NCBI GenBank assembly: GCA_015064415.1
Contig: SVSG01000011.1
Span: forward strand, 1 to 61,914
Reading direction: 5' to 3'
DNA length: 61,914 bases
Source of the DNA: Oscillospiraceae bacterium
GTDB lineage: Bacteria; Bacillota; Clostridia; Oscillospirales; CAG-272
The position numbers were made by a program, and so were the translations under genes. Within the stretch, counting starts at the first letter, position 1. Every line of letters begins with the position of its first letter. Below the pieces are notes generated by a model. The model was not told the DNA's origin, ran no database searches, and worked only from the letters and a program-made list of their open reading frames with translations. Positions 43,664 through 61,914 of the stretch are shown in pieces.

Positions 43664-43957
43664 CTATATTTGAGGAAATTTTTCTGCGTGTTGCAAATAC
43701 TTGGTTGCCAACGGAATCACGTCGCTTATGGCGTAAACGTCGTCACCGTTGGTAATCAATTGAAGGGCTTTCGCCAGCTCTTTGCCGATAGCGTTCATTT
43801 GCTCGATCAATGCGTCATAGTTGGCGTCCTCCCACTGTATCTTCTCGATTTCTTTTTTGATATGGTGAAAGGCGTTAAGTTGTCTTTTATAAGTGAAAAT
43901 TACCGCATTTTTTTCGTTTTCCATAGCGTCAAGCTTTATTTTTAGCACGTTATCCAT
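43664..43957 (-). CDS. WXG100-like helical hairpin protein
   Basis: A 97-residue all-helical protein. Trp42 in IQWEDANYDALIEQ lies at the turn between two long helices, as in WXG100 proteins. The WED-A-NYD motif is shared with the WDDSNYD of the protein at 45568-45837, marking them as paralogues. There is no signal peptide and no clear C-terminal YxxxD/E export motif. The start overlaps the end of the upstream gene by 8 bp. It is the last gene of the operon. Expected role: a partner or substrate of the EccC-like ATPase encoded at the operon start. Confidence 0.6.
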   Translation of the reverse strand: MDNVLKIKLDAMENEKNAVIFTYKRQLNAFHHIKKEIEKIQWEDANYDALIEQMNAIGKELAKALQLITNGDDVYAISDVIPLATKYLQHAEKFPQI

Positions 43958-44957
43958 CTTTTTTCTCCCAATGAATCATACCGTTTACGTCTATTGTTGC
44001 ACCATCCGGCTGGGGAACGGTAACAAACCCTTTGTCGCTCATTTTGGCAAGGAAGGTCTTGCCTCCCAGCTTGTGTAAATTCGCACTTGGCATTCTGAAA
44101 CGGGTAATAGCTTCGGCTTTTTCGAAAAATGAAGCTTCGTCTCGTTCTTTTAACAAAACTTCATCGCAGGCGGAGTCGAAGCTTTCGGATGAGTTTGCGG
44201 ATACCGCGTTCGCATCGTTTACGCTCTTTCCGAAAAAAGCACTTGAAGTTGCGTTGTGATGGTGAGTGTTTTTTATTTGAAACAGCCGAGTGACGTAAGA
44301 GTATTCGCGCAGGTTACTTGGACGCATCATATAAAGCTCTTGCGCAGTCTCATATAGGTGATCGAATACGAAACAAAACTCGCTCATTGTTGCGTTCACT
44401 TTTTTGTTTGAGTTGGAGAAGTTATGGAGCGTGCTCAAAAATTCTCGTGTCCGAGCCGTGGTTGTCTCCATCTCGCTTCTGACGGATGCTTCCAGTTGAT
44501 AAAGCTTTGAAAGGATGTCCTCAAGCTCTGACTTTGCGGCGGCGCATTGGGACACGTAGTTGTCAATACGATGGTTTTTCTCGCAAATTCTTGCGTTTTG
44601 TTCTTCGATTTGCGCCGCTTGCTTTTGATATGCATTGGAAATAGCTTCCTTATCGTTTTGAGAAGCGTTGGAAGGTATCAACGGTTTTGCGGGAGGGGGT
44701 AATGTCTGACATTTTTGATTTTGTGCATCAATGCTTTTTTTGTCGGCGGTTGCTATCAGACCCGCAACGTTTGAAATAGAGTTCTGAATACTCGCAATAA
44801 TGTTATTCTCATGGGCGATAAAGTCTGCAATTTCTGTTTCTGTTTTGCATGTAATTTCGTCAAGGGCACGGATGCTTTCTTGAATTTTATTTTCTGCCTC
44901 TATGCAAGAGCTTGGAATCATGGAAAGAGCGTTCAGCTCAAAGCAAACGTCGTTCAT
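43950..44957 (-). CDS. Coiled-coil protein of the EccC/WXG100-like operon
   Basis: A 335-residue protein, mostly helical. It has a long N-terminal coiled coil (about 10-90), a proline spacer (LPPPAKPLIPS), a second coiled coil (about 115-215) and a C-terminal beta-like tail, LHKLGGKTFLAKMSDKGFVT, then MIHWEKKD. The layout (helical hairpin region plus small C-terminal domain) is reminiscent of LXG or PPE-like effectors, but no known toxin domain is visible. ATG 44957 forms an ATGA overlap with the previous stop. No membrane segment. Function unknown. Confidence 0.65.
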   Translation of the reverse strand: MNDVCFELNALSMIPSSCIEAENKIQESIRALDEITCKTETEIADFIAHENNIIASIQNSISNVAGLIATADKKSIDAQNQKCQTLPPPAKPLIPSNASQNDKEAISNAYQKQAAQIEEQNARICEKNHRIDNYVSQCAAAKSELEDILSKLYQLEASVRSEMETTTARTREFLSTLHNFSNSNKKVNATMSEFCFVFDHLYETAQELYMMRPSNLREYSYVTRLFQIKNTHHHNATSSAFFGKSVNDANAVSANSSESFDSACDEVLLKERDEASFFEKAEAITRFRMPSANLHKLGGKTFLAKMSDKGFVTVPQPDGATIDVNGMIHWEKKDG

Positions 44958-45274
44958 ATTTCCCCAAGCTCCTTGATGATTAAATTCGCGCGGGCACAAA
45001 GATTCTCGGCGTGGGTAAAAAGGACGTCCGATTTGTTGTAGCCCGTATCCAAAGCATCTGTTGCGCGCGTGGCGGCGGTTAGGCCGCTATCCATGTTCAA
45101 GGCAAAGCGATCGGTTATTTTGCGAAGACTTTCGCCGGCGCTTTTTCCGACCCTGTCATCGAGAGTGTTGGATATAATTTTGGCAAGGGCGTTTAAGCTG
45201 TTTTGCGTATCGCTTGCAATATCTTTTTCCGTATGAATATCGCTTTTGAGGACGGTTAACGTAATTTGGGACAT
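44954..45274 (-). CDS. Small helical protein (DUF5082/LXG-partner-like)
   Basis: A 106-residue protein, helical, without Trp (ITLTVLKSDIHTEKDIASDT...ENLCARANLIIKELGEI). Length and position between WXG-like genes and a coiled-coil protein resemble the small LXG-associated partners of Firmicutes T7SS loci. That is a position-based comparison only. It starts 3 bp after the stop of the preceding gene and overlaps the next by ATGA. Confidence 0.55.
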   Translation of the reverse strand: MSQITLTVLKSDIHTEKDIASDTQNSLNALAKIISNTLDDRVGKSAGESLRKITDRFALNMDSGLTAATRATDALDTGYNKSDVLFTHAENLCARANLIIKELGEI

Positions 45275-45277
45275 AAA

Positions 45278-45571
45278 TTACCTCACGTCAACGCCTTGTA
45301 ACTTCTTTAATTGCTTCGCGTCTTTCTCCACATCTTGGGAGATGGTAAGAAGCTTTTCCGCCTGCGTTTGAATAACTGCATTGACCTCTTCAATTACCTT
45401 GGAAAAGTCATCGTACTGCTTACCGGACCAGCACGAATGCATTTCCTGATGAGTGTTCAACAGCTTTTTCATATCTTGTTTCAAATCATTCGCATACGTG
45501 GTGATTTTCTTGGAGAGCTTCAGCATTTCGTCGGGATCTGAATTGTTTATCAGCGTATTCTTATTCATCAT
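45278..45571 (-). CDS. WXG100-family protein
   Basis: A 97-residue helical hairpin with Trp48-Ser-Gly50 in HSCWSGKQYDDFSK at the centre, the true W-x-G motif and the usual length of about 100. Flanking helices are amphipathic (LKLSKKITTYANDLKQDM and EVNAVIQTQAEKLLTI). WXG100 proteins are substrates or partners of EccC/EssC ATPases. AAGGAG lies 7 bp before the second ATG (45568); the first ATG (45571) overlaps the previous stop. No obvious YxxxD/E tail. Confidence 0.75.
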   Translation of the reverse strand: MMNKNTLINNSDPDEMLKLSKKITTYANDLKQDMKKLLNTHQEMHSCWSGKQYDDFSKVIEEVNAVIQTQAEKLLTISQDVEKDAKQLKKLQGVDVR

Positions 45572-45837
45572 CTTCTCCTTAAATATTTCGTACCTTCTTC
45601 GTGCAATTGCTTCAGCTTTTTGACGGATTTGTCAATCGCTTCAACCAGCTTTTTCTGTTCGTTCAGAACCTGCTCCTTGGCTTCGATTATAAGGTCATAG
45701 TTGCTATCATCCCAATGACTGTGGGCATCCTTCAACGTTTTATCGAAGTTATCAAGGTCTTTTTCCAACTTTTTTTTGAAATTTCTGAGGTAAATGACAT
45801 ATTCTTCGATTTTAGCTACGTCGATCTTGTACGGCAT
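45568..45837 (-). CDS. WXG100-like helical hairpin protein
   Basis: An 89-residue protein (MPYKIDVAKIEEYVIYLRNF...) with Trp42 in HSHWDDSNYDLIIEAK between two charged helices. The W-D-D-x-NYD turn replaces W-x-G and is shared with the protein at 43664. It lies 11 bp after the zinc-ribbon/DUF6273 gene and overlaps the next gene by 4 bp. A strongly basic end (LHEEGTKYLRRR) is distinctive. Confidence 0.65.
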   Translation of the reverse strand: MPYKIDVAKIEEYVIYLRNFKKKLEKDLDNFDKTLKDAHSHWDDSNYDLIIEAKEQVLNEQKKLVEAIDKSVKKLKQLHEEGTKYLRRR

Positions 45838-45848
45838 ACAAAGACTCC

Positions 45849-47267
45849 TTATTTATCAAATTTGATCCACATTGCGGGACGGACGCCGCGGACCTCTGTC
45901 GCGGTTTCATATCCGTCAAGGACAATCCTATCCCCTGAGAAGCGCGCAGAGTGAAAGAGATTTTTGTCATCCCGAAAACTCCATCTGCGGTCACGTAGCC
46001 ACCATCGTACTTGTCCGTCGCCGTTATTGGGAAAACCGTGGCTTTTTGCATAATTGCTTGCAGAACAACTGCCAAGGTCACCTGTAAAATATTTGAACAC
46101 TTCGTCACTGTTTAAGAGGAACAAGCGGTCGGACGTGTCCATGCAATCATCGGTTGTTACGGTTGTGGTGCAGATTTGAGCTTGTTCCTGCGAATTAAAG
46201 GAATTATTCAAGAACTCATTATTAAGCCACGCGCGCAGATGGCAGTTTTCCCATGTTACGTTCTTGCTTTTTAAATTATTGTGAAAAGGTCGGCCTTCAA
46301 GTGCGTATTTACTTATTACCAAAGCTTTGCGACCTTCTTGTTCGAGTACGATCCATTCAATGGGGACGCCACCGTGTACACCAAAGGTTACGGTTTTGCC
46401 GGCGGACCAGCTTTCAAGAAATTGTTTGCGCTTTTTTGCCTCGGCAGCTTTGCGCGCTTCTTCTGCTTTTTTGAACTCCTCCGCTTTGCGCGCTTCTTCT
46501 GCTTTTTTGAGCTCCGCCGCTTTGCGTGCCGCTTCTGCTTTTTTTGCCTCAGCCGCATTGCGTGCCGCTTGTTCAAGTTTAAGAAGGTGGATCGTAATGC
46601 ATCCATTTTGATTTTCAAGGTAGGGATCTATATTATCGTCAACGCTTAAAAAATCCCTTGCGGTAGGGGAAAGGAGCTTGTTTAAAGTATCCCGGTTATA
46701 TTCGGTTAAGATCAGCTTCTCAAGTTTGACACCCTCAAATGAATCGTCGTATATTTTCTCTACCGATGCGGGAATGTTGATTTTTACAAGAGAGTTGCAG
46801 TTTGCAAAAGCTCTTTTGCCGATGATTCTGATGCCGTTTTCAATTTCCACAAACGTGATGACGTCGTTGTTTTCGAAGGCGCTGTCATAGATCTCCTCAA
46901 TAGGGGAGCGAATGACGATACTTCTTTTCTTGCCCGTGTAGCCGAGCAGCACCTCATTTTCTACAATAAAGCCCTCTTTTGCATAAAGCTGATCCTGCGC
47001 CATGGCATTCATGGTATCAAGATCAATGACGGCGTCCATTGGATTTGTTTGGGCGGGGGGCAGGGGGGTGTCAGCCATAAGATCTTTCGCAATGTCATAT
47101 CCGCATTCCGGGCAGAAGGTCCCACCCGAAAACTTGGTTCCGCATTCCGTACAAAAATGTTCTGCGTTTTGGTTTTCTTCTTCAAATTTCTTGATGTTGA
47201 AGCCACACTTGACGCAAAATTTTGCCGTGCTGCCTACGCTTGCTCTGCATTTTGGACAGGTTTTCAT
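45849..47267 (-). CDS. Double zinc-ribbon, LRR, helical-linker and DUF6273 protein
   Basis: A 472-residue modular protein. Two zinc ribbons occupy 1-65 (CPKCRAS...CVKCG and CTECGTK...CPECG). BspA-type LRR units follow at about 100-190 (VEIENGIRIIGKRAFANCNS). A strongly charged helical stretch of AAEAKKAEAARK-type repeats spans about 230-280, and a C-terminal DUF6273 domain (WENCHLRAWLNNEFL, DRLFLLNSDEVFKYF, WWLRD, VRGVRPAMWIKF) ends it. DUF6273 is a lectin/FGE-like fold usually seen on surface or sensor proteins; here no signal peptide is present. ATG 47267 follows AAAGGTGG. Likely scaffold or sensor within the operon. Confidence 0.8.
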   Translation of the reverse strand: MKTCPKCRASVGSTAKFCVKCGFNIKKFEEENQNAEHFCTECGTKFSGGTFCPECGYDIAKDLMADTPLPPAQTNPMDAVIDLDTMNAMAQDQLYAKEGFIVENEVLLGYTGKKRSIVIRSPIEEIYDSAFENNDVITFVEIENGIRIIGKRAFANCNSLVKINIPASVEKIYDDSFEGVKLEKLILTEYNRDTLNKLLSPTARDFLSVDDNIDPYLENQNGCITIHLLKLEQAARNAAEAKKAEAARKAAELKKAEEARKAEEFKKAEEARKAAEAKKRKQFLESWSAGKTVTFGVHGGVPIEWIVLEQEGRKALVISKYALEGRPFHNNLKSKNVTWENCHLRAWLNNEFLNNSFNSQEQAQICTTTVTTDDCMDTSDRLFLLNSDEVFKYFTGDLGSCSASNYAKSHGFPNNGDGQVRWWLRDRRWSFRDDKNLFHSARFSGDRIVLDGYETATEVRGVRPAMWIKFDK

Positions 47268-47289
47268 AATGTTTTCCACCTTTGCTTTA

Positions 47290-48396
47290 TTAATATCTTA
47301 TAACGCTAAAATTACTGCCGATGAAATACGGGGGTGTAAGATGCATAGGAAGCTTTACGGTGCGCAGATTATCACATCTTCGGAAGGCGAGATCATCGAT
47401 TTTCGTTACGCTTTGCGGAATCGTAATGGTTGTCAAGGCCTTGCAGTTTGCAAATGCACATTCGCCGATATGCGTCAATCCCTCGGGAAGTGTGACATCG
47501 GTCAGATTGGTGCAGGAATCAAAAGCTTGGATTTCTATTTTCGTTACTCCGCGCGGAATCTCAATACGAGCCAGATTGCTGCAATAAGAAAATGCTCTTG
47601 CCGGAATCGTCGTAATATTGCACGGTAATTGAATGCTAGGCAAGCTTTCGCACTTGTAAAATGCTTCAAAATCTATTCCCGCTACACTATTGGGTATGGT
47701 AACACTTCTCAGGTTTTTGCAGTCTTGAAACATTCTATAATGGATCCATTTAAAACCGTTTTCTATCGTAACGTATTGCAGGTTTGTGCAGTTGTGAAAG
47801 GCTCCGCTTCCGCCAAACCAATTCGTTTTTTCAAAAATTGCGTCTCCGGGAATAGTTATACTCGTCAGTTTAGAGAAAGCGAATGCGCCGTCGCTTATGA
47901 ATACTCCGCCACGGGGCAATTCGAGGGTTGTTGCTCCAAGGCATGCAAAGGCATCTTTGCCGATTTTTTTTAGACTTTGGGGCAAAACCATGCTTTTTAT
48001 ATTGTAGCAGCCTTCAAACGCAGCATCACCGATCTCGGTAACTTGTCCTTCAAAGGATACCTCTGTTATTTCACTGCGCATGATCCTATCGTGGGAAAAA
48101 GCGTTCTTTCCCACGACCGTAACCTCCTTCGGCACAACCACCTTGCCGCCCTTGCCCTTGTATTTTATCAGTACGCCGTCTTTTATTTCAAAGTCTTTTT
48201 TGATCTTTTCGAGCGCCTGTTGCTTTTTGAGCTGCTTTGAGGCCTCGTTCTCCAAGGCGGAGAAGTCTAATCCGGCAAGACCGCCGGAGCTTTCGGCGTT
48301 GTTTTTGTTGTTTAAGTATTTGCTGATGTTGGCGCCGCATTCCTGACAGAATTTCTGTGTGATCAGTTTCGCGCCGCATTCGGGACAGAATTTCAT
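47290..48396 (-). CDS. Zinc-ribbon plus BspA-type leucine-rich-repeat protein
   Basis: A 368-residue cytosolic protein: zinc ribbon (CPECGAKLITQKFCQECG) at 4-21, a short coiled coil (QLKKQQALEKIKKDFEI) near 60-75, then ten or more LRR_5 units (for example YVTIENGFKWIHYRMFQDCK). Its first 90 codons are nearly identical in DNA to those of the gene at 48410-49957. ATG 48396 has AAAGGAGAAG 6 bp upstream; longer in-frame reading enters the neighbouring gene. LRR_5 proteins bind other proteins; a role as scaffold for the WXG-like proteins is inferred. Confidence 0.82.
   Translation of the reverse strand: MKFCPECGAKLITQKFCQECGANISKYLNNKNNAESSGGLAGLDFSALENEASKQLKKQQALEKIKKDFEIKDGVLIKYKGKGGKVVVPKEVTVVGKNAFSHDRIMRSEITEVSFEGQVTEIGDAAFEGCYNIKSMVLPQSLKKIGKDAFACLGATTLELPRGGVFISDGAFAFSKLTSITIPGDAIFEKTNWFGGSGAFHNCTNLQYVTIENGFKWIHYRMFQDCKNLRSVTIPNSVAGIDFEAFYKCESLPSIQLPCNITTIPARAFSYCSNLARIEIPRGVTKIEIQAFDSCTNLTDVTLPEGLTHIGECAFANCKALTTITIPQSVTKIDDLAFRRCDNLRTVKLPMHLTPPYFIGSNFSVIRY
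48118..48396 (-). repeat. Direct repeat, copy 1 (5' part of zinc-ribbon/LRR gene)
   Basis: About 280 bp at the 5' end of this gene match 49679-49957 with only a few differences, in the same orientation, 1561 bp apart. Codons outside the repeat have diverged fully, so the N-terminal part has been kept alike by recent duplication or gene conversion. Confidence 0.85.
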
Positions 48397-48409
48397 AATA
48401 TCTTCTCCT

Positions 48410-49957
48410 TTAATATTCAATAAGCCTCCAATCACTTCGTCTAAATTCATAGTCCTCGCTGAAGCAATGCGACACAAGGTGGCTGGGGATTTTTATCGTT
48501 GTTTTTCCGCTAATAGCGAGCGCATAGTCTCCTATTTCCGTTACACTGTAAGGAATTTCAAGGCTTGTTATGGAATCACAACTCGTAAAGGCAGCTTCTC
48601 CTATTTTTCTTACGCCATACGGAATGGTGATAGCCTGCAGATTCTTGCAGCCGACGAAGGTGTGACTCGCTATTTCTGTGAGATAAGGGGGCAGTGTAAC
48701 GCTTGTCAGACTTTCGCAGTTGGCGAATGCACTTGAACCAATCTCGGTGACGCTGTTTGGTATTTGTATGCTTTTTACCATTGAGCACATACAAAAGGCG
48801 TATTCGCCTATTCTTTTGCAATTACTGCCATTTTCGAAGGAAATGCTTGAAATTTTACAATTTTTGAACAGACGGTCGGGAACACAAACAACGCTTGCTC
48901 CAAACGTTACGCTTATTCCTCTACTCTCAGAACCTGCGTTTTTAAATATATCGGAGGAGATCTTGGCCGATTTCGCGTTATACTGCATTCTTTCAAGAGC
49001 AACGCAGTCGACAAACGCGTGGTCAGCGATGGTGGTGACGTTTTGCGGGATTGTGATGTCCGTCAGACTTCTGCACCCGCGAAATGCATCAGGGTGGATT
49101 TCGGTTATACTTTCCGGGAGGTTGACTTTCGTCAAGCTTCTGCAATTTTCGAATGAAGCGCATCTTATCGTTGTTACTCCATAGGGGATTGTAACGTTTT
49201 TCAGACTTACACAGTTGCAGAATGCACTGTTTTCGATAGATTTGACACTATTGGGTATCGTCACGCTTTCCAAAGCTCCGCAGTCGCAAAACATATTCAT
49301 CGGTATAAAGGTCACACCGTTTTCAAAGATAACGCTCTGCAGATTTTGGCAGCGATTGAAAATGGAACCGCGATTTCCTGTGAGTTCTGCGCGTCCAGAC
49401 ATTGCTCCACCGGGAACCGTGATGGTTCTCAGCTTGGAATATGAAAACGCTGATGCACCTATCTCTTTAAGATTGCTTGGCAAAGTCATTTCGGCCATAC
49501 CTGCGTGGCAAAAAGCAAGGTCTCCGATTTTGGTGACGGTGTTGGGAAGTTTTATACTCTTTAAATTGATACAGCCCATAAATGCTTCGCTCTGTATTTC
49601 CGTTACTTTGCCTTCAAAAACCACCTCTGTTACCTGCGATGAGCCGCCCAGTGCTTTGAAGGCCGATTTACCTATAACCGTAACCTCCTTCGGCACAATC
49701 ACCTTGCCGCCCTTGCCCTTGTATTTTATCAGTACGCCGTCTTTTATTTCGAAGTCTTTTTTGACCTTTTCGAGGGCCTTTTGCTTTTTGAGCTGCTTTG
49801 AGGCCTCGTTCTCCAAGGCGGAGAAGTCTAATCCGGCAAGACCGCCGGAGCTTTCGGCGTTGTTTTTGTTGTTTAAGTATTTGCTGATGTTGGCGCCGCA
49901 TTCCTGACAGAATTTCTGTGTGATCAGTTTCGCGCCGCATTCGGGACAGAATTTCAT
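48410..49957 (-). CDS. Zinc-ribbon plus long BspA-type leucine-rich-repeat protein
   Basis: A 515-residue protein with zinc ribbon CPECGAKLITQKFCQECG at 4-21, coiled coil near 60-75 and about sixteen LRR_5 units of 23 residues (pattern F-xxC-xxLxxVxIPxSVxxIGxxAF). It is the long paralogue of the next gene. Two adjacent ATGs exist (49960 and 49957); AAGGAG fits the second better. No signal peptide, in contrast to the usual surface-exposed BspA proteins, which points to an internal scaffold. 13 bp separate it from the next gene. Confidence 0.82.
   Translation of the reverse strand: MKFCPECGAKLITQKFCQECGANISKYLNNKNNAESSGGLAGLDFSALENEASKQLKKQKALEKVKKDFEIKDGVLIKYKGKGGKVIVPKEVTVIGKSAFKALGGSSQVTEVVFEGKVTEIQSEAFMGCINLKSIKLPNTVTKIGDLAFCHAGMAEMTLPSNLKEIGASAFSYSKLRTITVPGGAMSGRAELTGNRGSIFNRCQNLQSVIFENGVTFIPMNMFCDCGALESVTIPNSVKSIENSAFCNCVSLKNVTIPYGVTTIRCASFENCRSLTKVNLPESITEIHPDAFRGCRSLTDITIPQNVTTIADHAFVDCVALERMQYNAKSAKISSDIFKNAGSESRGISVTFGASVVCVPDRLFKNCKISSISFENGSNCKRIGEYAFCMCSMVKSIQIPNSVTEIGSSAFANCESLTSVTLPPYLTEIASHTFVGCKNLQAITIPYGVRKIGEAAFTSCDSITSLEIPYSVTEIGDYALAISGKTTIKIPSHLVSHCFSEDYEFRRSDWRLIEY
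49679..49957 (-). repeat. Direct repeat, copy 2 (5' part of zinc-ribbon/LRR gene)
   Basis: Partner of the repeat at 48118-48396. The last identical blocks encode KGKGGKV and VPKEVTV before the LRR parts diverge. Confidence 0.85.
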
Positions 49958-49976
49958 CATCGTTCTCCTTCGGTTG

Positions 49977-50339
49977 TTATTCGTTGTTTGTGTTGTTCAT
50001 AAAGTCCATCATTGCGTCGACGCCTTGCGAGCGAAGCAGATCTTGGCACTTTTCGACGTATGCTAATGCCTTTTCGAGCTCGTCATCATCCAGATTCAGT
50101 ATAGAGTCGATTAAATTATCAATCGAGTCTGAGGTATTTTCACTATCCTCTTCGTCCTCGCAGTCTTCTTCGTCCTCGCAGTCTTCTTCGTCCTCGCGGT
50201 CTTCTTCGTCCTCGCAGTCTTCTTCGTCTTCGTAGTCTTCTTCATCCGCAAGGTACTGACTCAGATTGCTTCCGCATTCCTGACAGAATTTTTGCGTGAT
50301 CAACTTTGCGCCGCATTCGGGACAGAATTTTAATGCCAT
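49977..50339 (-). CDS. Small zinc-ribbon protein with acidic hexapeptide repeats
   Basis: A 120-residue protein: the same zinc ribbon (CPECGAKLITQKFCQECG) as the two LRR proteins, then about seven repeats of DEED-C/Y/R-E, then a helical tail (LDDDELEKALAYVEKCQDLL). The acidic run could bind metal or basic partners. The ribbon identity shows that the three proteins diverged from one cassette. AAAGGAG lies before ATG 50339. It stands 24 bp after the ATPase gene. Confidence 0.75.
   Translation of the reverse strand: MALKFCPECGAKLITQKFCQECGSNLSQYLADEEDYEDEEDCEDEEDREDEEDCEDEEDCEDEEDSENTSDSIDNLIDSILNLDDDELEKALAYVEKCQDLLRSQGVDAMMDFMNNTNNE
50130..50245 (-). repeat. 18-bp tandem repeat within the acidic protein
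   Basis: GACGAAGAAGACTGCGAG-type units (18 bp, six codons) are repeated about six to seven times with single-base changes. Copy number could vary between strains without shifting the frame. Confidence 0.8.
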
Positions 50340-50363
50340 GATATTATATCTCCTTTCAATTAG

Positions 50364-53300
50364 TTAGTCTACTATGTTTTTTAAATATTCCTCGTCATAT
50401 TCGTATGGTACGAAGATGGAAATTTTATTGTCGTTGCACAAAATATGGAGCCTGTGGTCAAGTGCCGAGGTGGAAGCATTGTATATCAGCTTTTTCCCCT
50501 TCGCGCTGGCTCCGGCGGGCATCGCTTCAAGCGCGGCACACAGCGCGGAAGAGGAATAAGAATCTTCCTCCTCGTTGTACCTATCCGGGAAAATAATGGC
50601 ATCGTGCAAATACTTCTCGGATCTAAAGAATTTTATCGGTTCGCTGCACTGGATCGCAAAATAAACGTTGTTTTCTTTTCCCGACGTGATCAAGTCACAA
50701 AGGGCTTCGCACAAATCGTCATCCTTAAATATCTCGTCGGCCTTTGCAATCAAAACGAGAATGGGATAAAGCTCGCACTCGTCATCTTCCTCCCGTGTTT
50801 TTATGAGAGCTTGTATGTCCTCAAAAGCATCATCAATGCCGTCGCTTCCGATATAGGACATTTTCCCCGATAACAGCCAGGGATCAAGCATTCTTTTGAT
50901 CACGGTTTTGTTGCGCTTCAAAAATGCGTTTTTGTTGTAATCGATATAATAGACAACGGGCCCTTCAATACCTTTTGATAAAACTATCGTGTCTTTGATC
51001 AAAGATGCCTCCATCATTTTGGTGTCAAGATAGTGACCGAACAAGAACAGCAGATTGTTTTTGGAGTCAAACGGATATTCAAGCGGTGTGCTGGAGAGAT
51101 AAGTCTTGCCGAGTCTCATACGAATGACACCCTCCTCACTGTAGTTGCTTTTGGCACACCTTACCGCGAAGGGAACGTCGCTTTCCTTTGCGATTCGCAC
51201 AGCACGGATGTTGCTTTGGAGTTCCATTTTATACTCGGGGTATTTGGCTTTTATCTCCTCAATATGATGCTTGAGTTTTTCACCCTCTTCGGAATAAGCC
51301 GTTCTGACGCTATGTAAATTGCCGCCACACGCGAAGAAACAACTTCCTTTGATTTTCTCAAGCTCGGGCTGTCTGTTTGTCGCGTGAGGAATCAACTGGC
51401 CCGCATTTTCATGTGCTTTGAACTCGATTCTGTTGCCAAACAATGCGATGATAGAATTCACTTCCGCAGGGAATTTGATGGAAGAGATCACGAGGCTGAT
51501 TCCGTAAGCACGTCCGACCTGGGCTATTCTGTTGATCCTGCTGACTGCTTCGCTGCTATCTTGAACAAGCTGATAAAATTCGTCGATTATTATCATGCAT
51601 CGAGGCAGAGGGGCTTCAGCTACCTCGTTATAGGCATATATATTTCCGTGTGAGCCAATGAGGTCGCCTCTGCGCTTCATTTCGCCGTCAATGAGGTCCA
51701 AAACGTCATTTGCGGCAAAGATGCGGTCGCCCGTTACCACCGTTTTCAGATGCGGGAGCTTTTCTTCCTCAAATATCTTAAAGTCACCCTTGACCATAAC
51801 GATCAGGTGCAGTTCAAGCTCGGCGGGGGAATACAGCTTGCTTGCCGACAGTATCAAGCTGTTGATAAATGCTGTTTTGCCCGATCCGGTTGTGCCGATC
51901 AAAGCAAGATGAGCTTCGGGACCGTCAGCGCTCAGATTTACCGAAATGGGGTTTGAGCCCTGTTTGCCGAATGGAATGGACAGGACTTTGGAATATTTTG
52001 TTCTTCGTGGGCTGGTTTTGAAGTCCTCTTTTTCAACAACGCTGTCAAGATAGATGACCTTGTTCGTGTCGCGCTTGATTTCTACCTTAAATGCGCTCAA
52101 AATTGCATTTATGTCATAGCCGTCACCGCAGGTGTTTGACAAATATTCCACCCCGTTTTGAAGTAGGATTCCTTTGCCGTTTATGATTTTAAACTCTACC
52201 GTTTGGGCATTCATACTTTCAAGCTCCGGGAGGTATCTTCGCTGATATTTGGTGTCTTCATCCGTGTGTGTGTTTTCCGTGATCAGAAAGAATACGCCGG
52301 CGGCTTGTCCGTTTTTTAATGCGCTTGTTATTTCGTCGTAAGCGTTTTCATATTTGCTCGGATATCCGTTCAAAAGTACAAGAATGATAGGCTGCGGATT
52401 GTCTTGATTTTTGTAATTGTATTCCAAGACGTTGGAGCAACGCGATTGACCTAAGAGCATGATCCTTTGATTAATGATTTTGTTAAGAGCAGCCAAAGAA
52501 TTCCTTATTTCCTCACCCGTGTTTTTTACGAAAATGTCGTGAGCGTTGTCGAAGAACAGAGCGGCATTGCCGTTTTTCAAAATCCCCGCAAACGTGGTGA
52601 CGGCGTTGGAGGAACGGCTGTCACAAAGCAAAAGCTGCTTGTTTGTGGAGGGATATGAGAAAAGGAATTTTATAACCGTGTTTACCGCGCAAACAGAAAG
52701 CTCAGCGGTATCGATATCTTTTTCGGTAGTTTTTATTACCATAATGCCGCTCTTGTGCAATTCCCAGTTGAGCAAGGACGTTATGACCTGATTCTTCTGA
52801 GAGGAATCGGACATGATTATTTCGTCAACCTCGTAACCCACCGACAAGGAGATCTCCGGTACGAACTTCTTTTCTATCTCCATTGGGGCTTCGATCATAG
52901 TCTTGCGGTGAAGCGTGTCAGAAGTGGTTATAATTTCGCTCACCATGTCATTGAATTCTTTTTTGCTTTTGCATATGGCGTTACGCTTGGCGTTTAGGGC
53001 GTCTATATTGTCTTGGTATTCCTTTAACGACGACTTGATCGCTTGAGAGGTGAGATTCTTGATGTTTTCGTATATTTGAACCACGGTGTTATATCTGAGG
53101 GCAAACTCGTACAAGTTGGTGTCGATGTTGATTCTTTTAATGACGAAAGACAGGAAAGCGACACTTTCTTGTCCGCATTTGAGCGCGACCTCGTATGCAT
53201 TCAGGAAGTTGTATTCTTGCAGCGGTGTACCGTTGTGCAAGCTTATCTTGTTGCCGGATGGCAAAATCTTAGATTTGTAAAGGTTGCAAACCGTGTCCAC

Positions 53301-53471
53301 CGTCGGCTTGATTTTGCTTATATATATACCCAATTCTCTCTCAAGGGACGAGAATTCGGTATTGTATTTTTGCTCGACCTCTTTCTTTTTTGCGTCATAC
53401 GAAGACTCAAGCTCGGAGATCTCCCTTGACAACTTGAAAAAAAGGTTAAGTTTGTCTGATTTATTGATCAT
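50364..53471 (-). CDS. EccC/FtsK-SpoIIIE-like ATPase without membrane helices
   Basis: A 1035-residue protein. Residues about 10-190 are coiled coil (LSREISELESSYDAKKKEVE). Three RecA-like modules seem to follow: about 200-440, 490-740 and 790-1035. Only the central one has an intact Walker A (LIGTTGSGKTAFI, near 530) and Walker B (CMIIIDEFYQLV, near 627). VSRINRIAQVGRAYGISLVI matches the FtsK/EccC sensor region. Three-module ATPases are typical of EccC/EssC of type VII secretion, but the usual membrane helices and FHA domains are missing. ATG 53471 has GAGGAA 7 bp upstream; GTG 53477 is less likely. It leads the ten-gene operon. Confidence 0.8.
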   Translation of the reverse strand: MINKSDKLNLFFKLSREISELESSYDAKKKEVEQKYNTEFSSLERELGIYISKIKPTVDTVCNLYKSKILPSGNKISLHNGTPLQEYNFLNAYEVALKCGQESVAFLSFVIKRINIDTNLYEFALRYNTVVQIYENIKNLTSQAIKSSLKEYQDNIDALNAKRNAICKSKKEFNDMVSEIITTSDTLHRKTMIEAPMEIEKKFVPEISLSVGYEVDEIIMSDSSQKNQVITSLLNWELHKSGIMVIKTTEKDIDTAELSVCAVNTVIKFLFSYPSTNKQLLLCDSRSSNAVTTFAGILKNGNAALFFDNAHDIFVKNTGEEIRNSLAALNKIINQRIMLLGQSRCSNVLEYNYKNQDNPQPIILVLLNGYPSKYENAYDEITSALKNGQAAGVFFLITENTHTDEDTKYQRRYLPELESMNAQTVEFKIINGKGILLQNGVEYLSNTCGDGYDINAILSAFKVEIKRDTNKVIYLDSVVEKEDFKTSPRRTKYSKVLSIPFGKQGSNPISVNLSADGPEAHLALIGTTGSGKTAFINSLILSASKLYSPAELELHLIVMVKGDFKIFEEEKLPHLKTVVTGDRIFAANDVLDLIDGEMKRRGDLIGSHGNIYAYNEVAEAPLPRCMIIIDEFYQLVQDSSEAVSRINRIAQVGRAYGISLVISSIKFPAEVNSIIALFGNRIEFKAHENAGQLIPHATNRQPELEKIKGSCFFACGGNLHSVRTAYSEEGEKLKHHIEEIKAKYPEYKMELQSNIRAVRIAKESDVPFAVRCAKSNYSEEGVIRMRLGKTYLSSTPLEYPFDSKNNLLFLFGHYLDTKMMEASLIKDTIVLSKGIEGPVVYYIDYNKNAFLKRNKTVIKRMLDPWLLSGKMSYIGSDGIDDAFEDIQALIKTREEDDECELYPILVLIAKADEIFKDDDLCEALCDLITSGKENNVYFAIQCSEPIKFFRSEKYLHDAIIFPDRYNEEEDSYSSSALCAALEAMPAGASAKGKKLIYNASTSALDHRLHILCNDNKISIFVPYEYDEEYLKNIVD

Positions 53472-53518
53472 TGTCACATTCCTCTTCTCATAATGGGCAT
53501 ATGCATATGTTAATATTG

Positions 53519-53547
53519 ATTATAACATCAACAATGCGGTTTGTCAA
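53519..53547 (-). promoter_or_regulatory. Promoter of the ten-gene EccC/WXG100-like operon
   Basis: TTGACA (53547-53542) and TATAAT (53524-53519) on the minus strand with a 17-bp spacer, about 45 bp upstream of the ATPase start. Confidence 0.88.
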
Positions 53548-53620
53548 CTTGATTTATAAATAAAAAGAGGCCTCTGTGAAGTTGATGGGCTCACGCGTGA
53601 AGAAAATGTTTTCTTTATAT

Positions 53621-53757
53621 ATTGCGGTCGAAAAAGGAGAAAAATAATGACATAATAAGATGTCTGAAATCAGGAGGTAATTATACTTACCTACACATAC
53701 ATGTCAAAAGGGAAATTCGGCTTGCTGGAGAAGCCAAAGCCGCGGGCACTGCACGAG
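53621..53757 (+). pseudogene. Degenerate copy of the start of the downstream alcohol dehydrogenase gene
   Basis: This stretch is clearly similar to 58269-58405: the same AGGAGGTAATTAT leader, then CTTACCTACACATACAT, and codons for SKGKFGLLEKPKP against SKGNFGLVEKPKP. The start codon has changed from ATG to ATA and the reading frame is lost after the HE residues. Weak further similarity (a GHEF-like GTCATGAATTTGG near 53896) suggests that a larger part of the gene once lay here. It stands between the two divergent operons. Confidence 0.8.
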
Positions 53758-53982
53758 TTGAATGGGATAAAATGCATATATATTCCAAAAATGTGTCTTC
53801 GTTAAATTTGACAAAAGTAAATGAAACGGTTTGGCTAAAATGCGATATCGTCTTTCCCGGAGTTCACGGCCTTTCTTGCGGACAAGAAAAATGCAGGTCA
53901 TGAATTTGGTGGCAATTGATAAAAGCGGGGAGCGGCGGTTACGGAATACGGCACGAATGACCAATAAATATGCCACTACTTA

Positions 53983-54011
53983 TTGACAAAAGTCAAAATA
54001 TGTAGTACAAT
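53983..54011 (+). promoter_or_regulatory. Promoter of the AAA-protease/YbjN operon
   Basis: TTGACA (53983-53988) and TACAAT (54006-54011) with a 17-bp spacer. The dyad TTGAC-AAAA-GTCAA overlaps the -35 box and is a possible operator. The leader to ATG 54101 is about 80 nt. Confidence 0.8.
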
Positions 54012-54100
54012 GTTTGATAATGAAGTTATAAGAGGATTTTGCTTTTTTTGAACCTATGGCTTTATTATTTCATGCAAAAAAGTGAAAGGATATTCGTTGT

Positions 54101-57100
54101 ATGCCGAAAAAAAGTTGTTTGCTGGAATATTTGATTTCAGTTGCCGATGTCATAAAGCAAAACGACGGCAAAAAGGTGTTGACCGCCGACTATTTTATGG
54201 TCGCTGTGTTAAAGACCATGGAGGCAATGGATCACAATCAGCTTCCGGATGAAATAGACGAAGAAGCAAAAAAAGAACTGGCAGTCGTGTGCGACCTGCT
54301 GAAAAAATACAATATCGGTGGGAGTGGGGAAATACAAGATATAGCCAAGGCGCTTTCGTCTTCTGAGAAGGCGTCGTTTATGGACTCGATCATCTTTGAC
54401 AAAATTCGCAAAAATGCAGAGGAAAAAGCCAAGGCGAAGGGGCAGGATATCATTGCTACCCCGCTTTATCTCGAATTGATTATTGCGGAACCGACGAAGG
54501 CCATCCGTGAGCATATTTTGTCTCGCGTACCGAAAGAAAGCGACAAGGGAGAGGATAGTGCGTCCGAGAGTCCGGCTAAGAGCTCTGACAATGATTTCTC
54601 CTCTTCTTCGGTTGATCTCCCTGACGATGATTGGTTTCTTGATCTCCCCGAGGAAACGTCGGATGAGGTAAAGGGCGCGCAGTCTCGTGCACAGAAGGAC
54701 GTTCCTCCGAAAGAGCAAAAGCTTTCCGATATTGTTCAGACAATGCGCAACGTCCGAAGCGTCCTGCTTAAAAATGTATATGGACAGGATCAGGCGATAA
54801 ACACCTTCATATCCGGATATTTTCAGGCGCAACTGATGGCTTGCTCCCGCAAGGAGATAAAGAAGCCGCAGGCAACGTTCTTGTTTGCGGGCCCTCCCGG
54901 CGTGGGAAAGACCTTCCTTGCGGAAAAGGTGGCAGAAGCATTAGGATTGCCGTATATGCGCTTTGATATGAGCGAATACGCCAACGAGCAATCCACGTTC
55001 GACTTTTACGGTACGGACAAAAGCTATAAGGCGCCCAAGCCCGGAAACGTTACCGGCTTTGTGGCGGACAATCCCAAATGCGTCTTGCTTTTTGATGAAA
55101 TTGAAAAGGCGCACATAAATATCATCCATCTGTTTTTGCAGCTTCTTGATGCAGGACGCCTGAGAGACAGTTACAGTAACGAGGAGGTCTCGTTTTCCGA
55201 CGCGGTGATCATTATTACAACGAACGTCGGCAAAAACTTGTATGAAGATCCTTCTATTGTCAATCTCTCCGCCGTTCCGCGCAAGAAAATTCTGAAAGCG
55301 TTGGCATCCGATAGGAATCCGATGACAAATGCGCCGCTGTTTCCTGCTGCGATCTGTTCCCGTTTTGCTTCCGGAAATGTGGTTATGTTCAATCATTTGG
55401 AAGCCAACAATTTGTATACGATCGCCAAAAGAGAGCTTGAGAAAAATATCGAGGGGTTTGAAGCTTCAAGTGGCATAAAAATTTCTATTGACGAGAAAGT
55501 CCCCAGCGCCATTATGTTTTCCGAAGGCGGAAAAGCTGATGCTCGAACGGTGAAGGGAAGAGCAAATGCCTTTTTCCACGAGGAATTATATGAGCTGTTT
55601 CGGCTTCTGTCATCCGGCAGAGGTGCAGATCCTGTAGAAAAAATCAAACAGATCGACATCACGGTTCCTTTGAGCGGTTTAAGTGGCGAAATTTCTGCGA
55701 TGTTTGAGAGCTCTGCAAAGCCCGAGGTCCTGATATTTGCAAGCGGCGATATGGCATCGATTTGTGAGCAAAAGCTCAACGGACAAGCAGTATGCCATGT
55801 TGCAGAGTGTGTGGAAGCGGCTAGCGAGGTCTTGTTTAACCACGATATCAGCGTTGTCTTGTGTGACATAGAGTGCGGTATCAAGGATACGGACGTCACG
55901 GTACTCAACGCCGAAGATATCAATTCGGTCGGACATGATTTCTTGACCTGCGTTTTGGAAAAATACTCGCTTCCGGTCTATATATTGCAGTCAAAGGAAG
56001 ATGATATCAGCCAGGAAGAATTCCTTTCTTTCGCCAAGATCGGTGTTAGAGATGTGCTGACAGTAAGGGCGCGTAACAATACTTTTGCAAATCAGGTCGT
56101 TGCCAAGTGCAAGGTTGCATACCAGCAAAACCATATGATGAAGTTGGCGCGAGAAAACAAGGCACTCTCCTACAAGACCGCTCAGACGATTTCAAAGAAC
56201 AAAAAAACAGCAACGATCAATTTGTTTGACTTCCGATTGAGCTTGATCACGGACGTTGATGACTCTAAGAGCATCTTGGATAGTGTTTCGAGACCTGATC
56301 TTCATTTTGAAGACGTCATAGGCGCCGAGGACGCTAAGCAAGAACTGAAATACTTTGTGGAATACTTAAAGAATCCCGTTAAGTATATGCGCAAGGGTGT
56401 TCGTGCACCCAAGGGCGTTCTTCTTTACGGCCCTCCCGGTACCGGTAAAACGCTTCTTGCAAAAGCGATGGCCGGCGAATCCGGTGTTACCTTCTTGAAA
56501 GCTGAAGGCAATGAATTTTTGAAACGGTATGTAGGTGAAGGTGCCGAAGCCGTTCACGCCTTGTTCAATGCGGCGCGCAAGTATGCACCCTCCATTGTAT
56601 TTGTTGATGAAATAGACGCAATCGGAAAAGACAGAAACTTGTTGGGATCGGAAGATCATACCAGTGACGTTTTGACCGCGTTCCTGACTGAAATGGATGG
56701 TTTCAATACGGATACGTCTAAACCGGTGTTTGTTCTTGCCGCCACGAATTATGGGGTTGATTCCGAAAAAGGAAAAAGCCTGGATGCCGCGCTGTTGAGA
56801 AGATTTGATCGCAGGATCTACATTGATCTTCCCAACAAAGACGAACGCAAGCGCTATCTTGAAATGAAGTTGAGCAAGCACTCATCTGTTAAACTCAGCG
56901 AGGAGCAGTTGGATAACATTGCAATGCGTTCGACCGGAATGAGCTTGGCACAACTGGAATCGATATTCGAAATGGCGCTGAGAAGTGCCATTCGTTCCGA
57001 AAACGGTTGTGTGAGTGACGCTGAATTCGAAGAAGCATTCGAGACCTTTAACAGCGGCGAAAAGAAGGAATGGAATCCTGATACTTTAAAGAGAACTGCC

Positions 57101-57631
57101 CGTCACGAAGCAGGGCACGCTTTGATTTGTTGGCTGGGAGGAGAGAAACCTTCCTACATAACGGTCGTTGCGCGCGGTGATCATGGCGGCTACATGCAGC
57201 ATGCCAACAGTGAGGGGAAATGCTTGTATACCAGATCTGAGCTTCTTGGTAGAATTCGCACGTCTCTTGGCGGCCGTGCCTGTGAGATCGTGTATTACGG
57301 CGAGGAGGGCGGAATGTCTACCGGAGCAAGCGGGGACTTGTATTCGGCAACCAAAACCGCCGAGCAGATGATATGTAATTACGGCATGGATCAAAGTGTT
57401 GGAATGGCTTACATTGACCCCAAGGCGGCTAACAGCGCTGTGAATCAGGTCGTGCGCGATAGAGTAAATGCGATGCTTGAGCAGGAGCTTGAGACGGCGA
57501 TCAAACTCATTAAGACGAATAAGCGTGCTATCGATGCAATGGTGGACGCTCTGATGGAGAAGAATCATCTGAAAGAGAATGAGATCGATGATATCTTCGG
57601 GCGAACCGTGGTATCCACGGAATTATCATAA
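54101..57631 (+). CDS. Giant AAA+ protease: Clp_N-like, ClpB-type AAA, receiver-like, FtsH-type AAA and M41 peptidase
   Basis: An 1176-residue protein with an unusual order. Residues 1-155 are helical and Clp_N-like, followed by an acidic Ser-rich linker. A Clp/HSP100 D2-type AAA module has Walker A GPPGVGKT near 264-271 and Walker B LLFDEIEKAH. Residues about 540-690 resemble a receiver-type alpha/beta domain (VLIFASGD, VVLCDIECGI). An FtsH-type AAA module has GPPGTGKT near 777-784, FVDEIDAIG and LLRRFDRRI. The M41 peptidase has HEAGH at about 1002-1006 and the third ligand Asp in STGASGDLYSAT. No transmembrane helix, so unlike FtsH it is soluble. It leads a two-gene operon. Confidence 0.88.
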   Translation: MPKKSCLLEYLISVADVIKQNDGKKVLTADYFMVAVLKTMEAMDHNQLPDEIDEEAKKELAVVCDLLKKYNIGGSGEIQDIAKALSSSEKASFMDSIIFDKIRKNAEEKAKAKGQDIIATPLYLELIIAEPTKAIREHILSRVPKESDKGEDSASESPAKSSDNDFSSSSVDLPDDDWFLDLPEETSDEVKGAQSRAQKDVPPKEQKLSDIVQTMRNVRSVLLKNVYGQDQAINTFISGYFQAQLMACSRKEIKKPQATFLFAGPPGVGKTFLAEKVAEALGLPYMRFDMSEYANEQSTFDFYGTDKSYKAPKPGNVTGFVADNPKCVLLFDEIEKAHINIIHLFLQLLDAGRLRDSYSNEEVSFSDAVIIITTNVGKNLYEDPSIVNLSAVPRKKILKALASDRNPMTNAPLFPAAICSRFASGNVVMFNHLEANNLYTIAKRELEKNIEGFEASSGIKISIDEKVPSAIMFSEGGKADARTVKGRANAFFHEELYELFRLLSSGRGADPVEKIKQIDITVPLSGLSGEISAMFESSAKPEVLIFASGDMASICEQKLNGQAVCHVAECVEAASEVLFNHDISVVLCDIECGIKDTDVTVLNAEDINSVGHDFLTCVLEKYSLPVYILQSKEDDISQEEFLSFAKIGVRDVLTVRARNNTFANQVVAKCKVAYQQNHMMKLARENKALSYKTAQTISKNKKTATINLFDFRLSLITDVDDSKSILDSVSRPDLHFEDVIGAEDAKQELKYFVEYLKNPVKYMRKGVRAPKGVLLYGPPGTGKTLLAKAMAGESGVTFLKAEGNEFLKRYVGEGAEAVHALFNAARKYAPSIVFVDEIDAIGKDRNLLGSEDHTSDVLTAFLTEMDGFNTDTSKPVFVLAATNYGVDSEKGKSLDAALLRRFDRRIYIDLPNKDERKRYLEMKLSKHSSVKLSEEQLDNIAMRSTGMSLAQLESIFEMALRSAIRSENGCVSDAEFEEAFETFNSGEKKEWNPDTLKRTARHEAGHALICWLGGEKPSYITVVARGDHGGYMQHANSEGKCLYTRSELLGRIRTSLGGRACEIVYYGEEGGMSTGASGDLYSATKTAEQMICNYGMDQSVGMAYIDPKAANSAVNQVVRDRVNAMLEQELETAIKLIKTNKRAIDAMVDALMEKNHLKENEIDDIFGRTVVSTELS

Positions 57632-57680
57632 AAATAATTGGGTTAGACCAACTATTATTAATTTTTTGGAGGAACAAAAA

Positions 57681-58160
57681 ATGGCAGAAGAAATGAACAT
57701 GCAAAAGGCAAAAGAAGTATTTGCTACCCTTATCAACATGCTGGACACGCGCGGCTGGAAATATACGAAGCACGAAGACAAGCTTCTTATCAAGAGCGGT
57801 GTCAAGAGTGAAGATCTTCCCGTTGAATTTATCGTTGTAGTTAATCCCAGAAACGAGGTCGTACAGTTTCTTTCGGCTATGCCCTTCAATATGCCCGAAG
57901 ATAAGCGTGTTGACGGTGCGATTGCAGTATGTGCCGCTAACTATGGTCTTGTTGACGGTTCTTTCGACTATGATTTGAATGACGGAGAGATCAGATTCAG
58001 ACTGACCTCCAGCTATCGCGAAAGCACTCTTAGTGAAGCTGTGTTTGAGTATATGATCATGGTATCTGCCCTCACTGTTGATCAGTACAATGATAAGTTC
58101 TTCATGATCGCTAAGGGGATGATGACTGTTCAGCAGTTCCTTGAGCAGGAAGAGGCATAA
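57681..58160 (+). CDS. YbjN-like (T3SS-chaperone-fold) protein
   Basis: A 159-residue protein whose centre (FIVVVNPRNEVVQFLSAMPF, then YGLVDGSFDYDLNDGEIRFR) matches the YbjN/DUF1790-type fold related to type III secretion chaperones. ATG 57681 is behind TTGGAGG; the frame further upstream is the end of the protease gene. It lies 49 bp after the protease and is followed by a terminator, so the two form one unit. The fold often binds short helical segments of partners; an adaptor role for the protease or for the WXG-like proteins is a reasonable guess. Confidence 0.75.
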   Translation: MAEEMNMQKAKEVFATLINMLDTRGWKYTKHEDKLLIKSGVKSEDLPVEFIVVVNPRNEVVQFLSAMPFNMPEDKRVDGAIAVCAANYGLVDGSFDYDLNDGEIRFRLTSSYRESTLSEAVFEYMIMVSALTVDQYNDKFFMIAKGMMTVQQFLEQEEA

Positions 58161-61871: not shown

Positions 61872-61914
61872 ATGAAACGAAAAGATGCAGAGGCAGAAAC
61901 AAGATACCGCCTGG
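61872..61914 (+). CDS. Start of a gene cut by the window edge
   Basis: ATG 61872 follows GGAGGTGAACGAA and opens MKRKDAEAETRYRL before the window ends. The ribosome site is excellent. The first residues recall short SHOCT-type proteins encoded ahead of serine recombinases in clostridial elements, but 14 codons are too few to decide. Confidence 0.55.
   Translation, partial: MKRKDAEAETRYRL

Follow-up and report, generated by a model that had tools for sequence, protein, structure and literature searches.

What does an EccC/EssC-type motor do in an operon whose proteins carry no hydrophobic, membrane-like segment? Such motors and WXG100 helical hairpins are parts of type VII protein secretion in other bacteria. 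Here, we describe a locus that combines both with zinc-ribbon proteins (positions 43664 to 58160 of contig SVSG01000011.1, Oscillospiraceae bacterium, assembly GCA_015064415.1); the window is the entire contig of 61,914 bases, from a 2.25-Mb draft genome that is 81% complete (the host, G000). All 12 open reading frames (ORFs) listed in a first-pass annotation of this DNA are present at their coordinates, ten on the minus strand and two on the plus strand, and its layout, in which a near-zero-spaced ten-gene minus-strand operon faces away from the genes for a Clp-FtsH fusion protease and for a YbjN-family protein, is confirmed, with intergenic gaps of -68 to +24 bases in the operon. Two large overlaps in this operon are the product of over-long starts, and the likely starts of the coiled-coil protein, the second protein with a zinc ribbon and leucine-rich repeats (LRR), and YbjN lie at 44957, 48396 and 57681, respectively. 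With confidence somewhat above even, we read the locus as a branch of the stand-alone ("mobile") FtsK/WXG100 cassettes, a cytosolic stress or conflict motor related to type VII secretion, lying beside an independent Clp-FtsH/YbjN cassette. The class has already been described, and the branch with zinc-ribbon partners looks like a new variant.

The motor (50364..53477, minus strand) is a soluble EssC/EccC-like FtsK ATPase of 1037 aa, assigned by Pfam, NCBIfam, EccC structures, its Walker A motif and module profiles. Pfam finds one FtsK_SpoIIIE domain (residues 484-665, 3.7e-18), the NCBIfam EssC model TIGR03928 matches residues 504-943 (2e-27, 95 bits, under its cut-off of 778), and the best solved relatives of a four-row profile are EccC proteins (4nh0, 2.6e-31), which bears out the EccC-like label given earlier; kinship to EccC/EssC is supported. 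The protein has no FHA match and, by hydropathy, no membrane-like segment. A degenerate module (~205-480) precedes an active one (~485-760) with the single Walker A motif of the protein (GTTGSGKT at 528). The first-pass annotation counted three modules, and these two stand; a third, FtsK-like module (~765-1037) is suggested by the EssC model match to 504-943 and has no partner in profile comparison. The FtsK/SpoIIIE-like phrog_1358 of PHROGs matches the active module (7.3e-35), and PADLOC matches (SspH, mad8, HerA) involve common ATPase parts only. Profile-profile comparison of four window-type ATPases with a pair from Caballeronia and Helicobacter gives a match of 99.5% (E 2.5e-23) over columns 264-691, spanning modules 1 and 2, and in module-wise comparison with five stand-alone ATPases, each of the first two modules finds its best partner in its own counterpart (97%, 9.5e-11 for module 1; 99.8%, 2.4e-30 for module 2). 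A tree of the active module, from which two long rows (Cab_160 and NocEccC_1096) were removed beforehand, groups the window with genomes G334 and G196 (support 100/99), joined by G237 (94/95), and groups the Caballeronia, Helicobacter, two Rhodococcus, Deinococcus and G1024 ATPases together (97/94).

The branch is sparsely distributed. The ATPase occurs in 4 of 345 sampled genomes of the family, namely the host, G334 (66%), G196 (59%) and G237 (27%), and the four-row profile, applied at 1e-35, matches the window alone among 394 sampled genomes of the order (family genomes included) and the window and G1024 among 391 genomes of the class. One scan of viral contigs gave no confirmed relative; 422 plasmid records match the ATPase, none across more than 80% of the query, and among the matches listed, seven plasmid loci were examined and only those of Caballeronia and Helicobacter are cassette-like. 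The Helicobacter plasmid locus (L133, 5749-10151) carries genes for a small W-G-D hairpin, a coiled coil with a C-terminal WHH nuclease, an SMI1/KNR4 protein, a small protein and a soluble FtsK. In G1024, of the same class as the host, locus L161 (contig C50, 5536-17778) encodes a soluble 1460-aa EssC-like ATPase, a WXG100-like protein, a protein of 328 aa whose N-terminus resembles a W-K-D hairpin, and ThiF (1.8e-24) and Prok-JAB (1.8e-7) proteins, with recombinase-like genes adjoining. The divergent version in G237 has hairpin-like proteins of 214, 80 and 91 aa and a coiled-coil-like protein of 229 aa, all named by eye.

Downstream in the operon lie five helical genes, all on the minus strand. 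The first product, WXG89 (45568..45837, 89 aa), is a WXG100-like hairpin with a W-D-D-x-x-Y stretch whose Pfam match is below cut-off (0.0072), and the second, WXG97 (45278..45571, 97 aa), is a clear WXG100 protein with W-S-G (PF06013, 3.7e-9, 37.2 bits against a cut-off of 27.3). They are followed by hp106 (44954..45274), a small helical-looking protein of 106 aa without tryptophan or family; by a coiled-coil protein (43950..44957), recognised by its heptads and three homologues; and by hp97 (43664..43957, 97 aa), a hairpin with a W-E-D-A-N-Y stretch and no family match. WXG89, hp106 and hp97 each have homologues in G334 and G196, and Pfam makes no WXG100 call for the last three proteins. At least three WXG100 hairpins had been proposed; one is clear, one is weak, and the third, hp97, is a candidate from its W-E-D-x-x-Y stretch and gene order. 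At E 0.001, a whole-genome PF06013 search recovers a single protein from each of G000, G196, G334 and G1024 and no match from G237; the sole match sits inside the ATPase gene cluster in G000, G196 and G1024, and on a 3.5-kb contig carrying the five-gene cassette in G334.

The order WXG89-WXG97-hp106-coiled coil-hp97 is the same in the window, G196 and G334, with pairwise identities of 36% to 72% among the three genomes (36-71% to the window), nonsynonymous divergence (dN) of 0.19-0.71 and mostly saturated synonymous divergence (dS). Retention of this order by G196 and G334 at such divergence is more than chance, and this five-gene helical cassette, in one order across three genomes, looks new. 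The a/d heptad excess of the coiled-coil protein is equalled by 3 of 100 shuffles. Across the three genomes, two stretches of this protein are the best conserved: the C-terminal ~55 residues (PSA-LH-LGGK...TID-NGM-H; 0.33-0.43 identical columns) and columns 121-150 (up to 0.43). PADLOC matches to the helical proteins (JetB, DndD, PDC-S06) are weak and involve common helical parts only.

Membrane-like segments were sought with a 19-residue Kyte-Doolittle mean, which reads hydropathy only and on a rough scale, a soluble-type dehydrogenase at 58332 reaching 2.19. Across the 12 window proteins the peak is 1.49 (the ATPase), compared with 2.62 (the host's own FtsK), 2.77 (a CPBP-like membrane protein), 3.20 and 2.71 for four membrane controls and 1.81 for a second FtsK of the host; within the reach of such a scan, the absence of transmembrane helices from all twelve proteins, as claimed earlier, is upheld. 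The scanned operon proteins of loci L129, L130, L131 and L166 all stay at or below 1.45, and the ATPases of G334, G196 and G237 likewise have no membrane-like segment. EssB (PF10140) and EsaA (TIGR03929) were found in none of the five draft genomes that encode an ATPase of this type (G000, G334, G196, G237, G1024), and the Bacillus subtilis control was positive. The claim that EccB, EccD, EsaA and EssB counterparts are all missing thus stands for EssB and EsaA, EccB and EccD having been outside the search. A second type VII system in the host was considered and rejected, as the remaining FtsK matches are two ordinary-looking FtsK/SpoIIIE paralogues, which lie head to tail at L043 (8152-13757, host contig C16).

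Between the ATPase and the helical cassette, also on the minus strand, are four genes for zinc-ribbon proteins, and zinc-ribbon proteins share the gene run with the ATPase in all four genomes (host, G334, G196, G237). The first (49977..50339, 120 aa) joins an N-terminal zinc ribbon (Zn_ribbon_Nudix, 26 bits against a cut-off of 25.6) to an acidic repeat, and its counterpart in L130 is an acidic zinc-ribbon-type protein of 224 aa. Its long Asp/Glu repeat is a possible parallel to the DNA-mimic-like protein that passages of PMC11090510 report for CoCoNuT-type cassettes. The next two combine a zinc ribbon below cut-off with LRR_5: a BspA-type LRR protein of 516 aa (48410..49960, 1.8e-117), in which the CxxC pairs are visible, and a protein of 368 aa when started at an internal ATG (47290..48396, with the ORF extending to 48477; 3.6e-69), whose N-terminus is nearly identical to that of its neighbour. 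The fourth (45849..47279, 476 aa) has a double zinc ribbon (Zn_Ribbon_1 and DZR above cut-off), LRR_5 (5.9e-14) and DUF6273 (3.2e-21). The zinc-ribbon/LRR scaffold proteins of the first-pass annotation are therefore real, and in G237 the zinc-ribbon proteins carry LRR-like and Sel1-like repeats (named by eye). Proteins that share an N-terminal zinc ribbon and differ in their rear parts (LRR, DUF6273, acidic) look new here.

The combined system had been thought undescribed, which does not hold for the class. A table footnote in PMC3482391 calls stand-alone FtsK-like ATPases with WXG100 partners "mobile versions of T7SS", and sections 9 and 10 of PMC11090510, which cite Anantharaman 2012 for this cassette class, describe a CoCoNuT/TerY-P FtsK-like ATPase with three modules, of which only D2 is active, and an N-terminal coiled coil. 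In the same sections, CoCoNuT-linked ATPases have no transmembrane domains and two WXG100 proteins alongside, and EssC-like and CDC48-like ATPases occupy the same slot between VWA genes. The window resembles these cassettes in its EssC-like ATPase without a membrane-like segment, its lone Walker A module after a degenerate one, its WXG100-type hairpins and coiled-coil protein in one operon, and its sporadic distribution. The lineages named in the PMC3482391 footnote do not include Firmicutes, whereas the window is probably from Clostridia; and where TerY-P/CoCoNuT cassettes have nuclease, CARF, VWA and kinase components, the window has zinc-ribbon LRR, DUF6273 and acidic proteins and an unmatched third module. 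In Helicobacter pylori, WxG and FtsK proteins are presented as a minimal type VII set (passages of PMC4978471), and the gene for the WRD hairpin HP0062 shares a cluster with one for an FtsK/SpoIIIE protein (passages of PMC3397514), a likeness to the W-x-D hairpins of the window; the HNH/ENDO VII nuclease and DnaK-homologue genes of that HP0062/HP0066 locus were not recognised in the window. With type VIIb systems (EssC, EsxA, EssB, EsaA) the window shares an EssC-related ATPase and one WXG100 protein; it differs in that the ATPase lacks a membrane segment and an FHA match, and in that EssB and EsaA were not found in the genome, of which 81% is represented. For the branch, the claim of novelty fares better: among the open-licence papers listed by the searches, none names the zinc-ribbon/LRR branch or the pair of YbjN and the fusion (YbjN with FtsH, VWA or TerY).

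The first-pass annotation had coupled the ATPase-hairpin machine to the protease, in a cytosolic translocase whose FtsK motor and hairpins would thread substrates into the fusion protease, YbjN being the chaperone. The divergent operons lie 623 bases apart and neither encodes membrane-like segments, which would suit such a machine, but the two were found together in no other locus or genome searched. The ATPase is absent from the neighbourhoods of all 22 other fusion loci (three have less than 1.1 kb upstream, three end at most 0.8 kb past the fusion, L040 is split, L041 is short, and a single genome supplies both L039 and L040). At 1e-50 the fusion is absent from all three other ATPase genomes, where G334 (93% complete) and G237 (69%) give FtsH-region matches only and G196 (78%) gives none, and six fusion genomes searched whole for the ATPase yield only matches confined to the active module, 171-292 positions long. 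Among ten genomes with one or other cassette, the host alone has both. The fusion, moreover, has AAA modules of its own. No conserved linkage between the divergent operons was thus found; the Clp-FtsH/YbjN cassette is independent of the ATPase operon, coupling is rejected on present evidence, and a motor that feeds the protease is very improbable.

A true secretion system that uses another membrane channel, exporting WXG100-type proteins without EssB or EsaA, is a stronger contender, if an unlikely one; passages of PMC11090510 suggest likewise for CoCoNuT-linked homologues and note that WXG100 proteins are secreted elsewhere. The EssC kinship of the ATPase fits export. So do the membrane-like segments carried by small cassette proteins at L138 and L140 and by two proteins of the G1024 cluster (2.52 and 2.61), of which one is encoded next to the WXG100 gene. 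In all three genomes with the five-gene cassette (window, G196, G334), hp97 has a conserved YxxxD motif that may be an export signal; hp106 also bears one such motif, the clear WXG100 protein has no YxxxD/E, and the scanned operon proteins of the window, L129, L130, L131 and L166 offer no membrane-like segment. Polymorphic toxin delivery, with the motor carrying the coiled-coil protein as an LXG-like effector, we consider more doubtful again. The order of genes in the cassette is reminiscent of LXG operons, and the coiled-coil protein of the Helicobacter relative ends in a WHH nuclease (1.1e-11) and adjoins the SMI1/KNR4 gene. A coiled-coil-nuclease fusion is also reported in passages of PMC11090510. 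The window protein, by contrast, ends in ~55 residues conserved across three genomes, not in a hypervariable toxin, matches neither a nuclease nor an LXG domain (LXG E 0.51), and has no recognised immunity gene.

We therefore return to a stand-alone FtsK/WXG100 cassette acting in the cytosol, against which the G1024 segments and the YxxxD motif weigh too, as do several further observations. Module 3 finds no match in the third module of the five stand-alone ATPases by profile comparison. The best tree of the active module places the window group beside ordinary FtsK/SpoIIIE proteins (81/85), apart from the other soluble ATPases; constraining ten soluble ATPases into one clade is not rejected (p-AU 0.116). 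An N-terminal coiled coil on the ATPase is not significant, its a/d excess being equalled by 23 of 100 shuffles, and Pro/Gly are few (0.04). The coiled-coil protein carries no nuclease, and there is no TerY-P triad in the window; VWA, PP2C, kinase and coiled-coil-nuclease neighbours are unmatched among the 17 proteins scanned, those of 40623-61226 on a contig that ends at 61914. Lastly, the five-gene cassette and the ATPase of G334 are on different contigs, so their linkage is visible in two genomes.

For such a cassette, we infer a hexamer, a docking mode, a substrate and a role as follows. The ATPase would form a soluble hexamer in which the single active module pumps polypeptide or DNA, and the degenerate modules would dock dimers of the WXG100-type hairpins and the coiled-coil protein. 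EsxB triggers ATP hydrolysis by EccC. The docked hairpins and coiled-coil protein may likewise be adaptors or the trigger of ATP hydrolysis. The N-terminal zinc ribbon could bring exchangeable recognition or scaffold subunits to the motor (LRR, DUF6273, acidic, and Sel1-like in G237), and the entire machine would act in the cytosol during a stress or conflict response. A bolder form, in which the WXG100/EssC machine of the window's family has wholly departed from secretion to work only in the cytosol and the zinc ribbon is a common docking tag for swappable recognition domains of these four kinds, we put forward tentatively, as possible and not as probable. If the ATPase and WXG100 hairpins do function free of membranes, the type VII core would amount to a motor-adaptor pair of a more general kind, and the purpose of stand-alone cassettes would become testable in a compact, soluble and expressible system. 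The zinc ribbon would then be a direct handle, with ribbon-bearing proteins expected to predict motor binders.

The independent cassette on the plus strand begins with a soluble Clp-FtsH fusion protease of 1176 aa (54101..57631), identified by Pfam (AAA_2, AAA and Peptidase_M41), a structure model, FtsH structures and motifs. A helical N domain is followed by AAA_2, a domain of alternating strands and helices (~515-655) and an FtsH-type AAA with M41, and the motifs comprise two Walker A sites (264 and 777) and HEAGH (1002). The model has a mean local confidence (pLDDT) of 74.9 and a predicted template modelling score (pTM) of 0.46, with FtsH as top fold match. Its hydropathy peak is 1.18: the catalytic FtsH part is present and the N-terminal membrane-like segment is absent, and the protein is FtsH-derived and not an FtsH. 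It shares AAA and M41 with HEAGH with FtsH and with the FtsH ternary conflict systems (passages of PMC7159879; see also PMC1779556), and differs from FtsH in lacking membrane helices and in being joined to a Clp-type AAA_2 and a middle alpha/beta domain; the protein in PMC7159879 is set apart from the fusion by its pair of FtsH-type ATPase domains and its association with MoxR-vWA. The middle domain (window 55613-56170), with predicted alternating strands and helices and an invariant D589, is (pseudo)receiver-like in strand/helix order and has no Pfam match. PADLOC matches to the protease (IetA, DolB and others) involve common ATPase parts only. The second gene (57681..58160, plus strand) encodes a YbjN-family protein of 159 aa (PF10722, 4.1e-7, 30.7 bits against a cut-off of 22, on the longer ORF), the model of which (pLDDT 88.5) matches Escherichia coli YbjN (6vu7) and the type III secretion chaperones VecA and ExsC in fold. 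Both identities proposed in the first-pass annotation, fusion and YbjN-like protein, agree with these matches.

Besides the host, five of 146 genomes have the long fusion, a 963-aa relative in G089 (36%) and a 305-aa piece in G066 being left uncounted, and it is found on 15 named contigs (L046-L060, from the best 80 of 200 matches, L061 onward being outside the set); among the matches listed, the named relatives are metagenome-assembled genomes of Clostridia/Oscillospiraceae, several from herbivore guts, which makes a gut Clostridium the probable host. YbjN is found in 12 of the 22 other fusion loci, adjacent in 10 and ~5 kb off in 2; it is a partner of the fusion protease, and the pair does travel together. 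Both cassettes have the look of accessory modules in stress or conflict loci, a role that for the window we infer, no VWA, kinase or nuclease gene being recognised beside its cassettes.

At lower coordinates than the operon, the window encodes a fusion of an EF-G-family GTPase and a YacP-type NYN domain (40623-43208). The gene at 40623 is common to genome G1074, whose DNA differs beyond it; G+C content falls there too, and the G+C step is thus no proof of an island boundary. At L046 (14038-19242) and L049 (13975-19422), Clp-FtsH and YbjN are followed by two VWA-type genes, a gene of 702/707 aa that begins like PP2C (by eye) and a gene for a protein kinase, a run resembling the TerY-P triad. 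L046, the one tested, matches VWA_4 (8.7e-11) and Pkinase (1.5e-21) in clusters C13-C15; its PP2C label is by eye, with no Pfam match at 0.001 and no PDB sequence match. A cluster C2 gene with a product of 591-1503 aa is near the fusion in 8 of the 22 loci (including L052, 8171-9958), the one product tested having no Pfam match, and a cluster C3 gene is near it in 4 of the 22 (L035, L039, L049, L055), with one member matching the Card1 endonuclease (1.2e-7).

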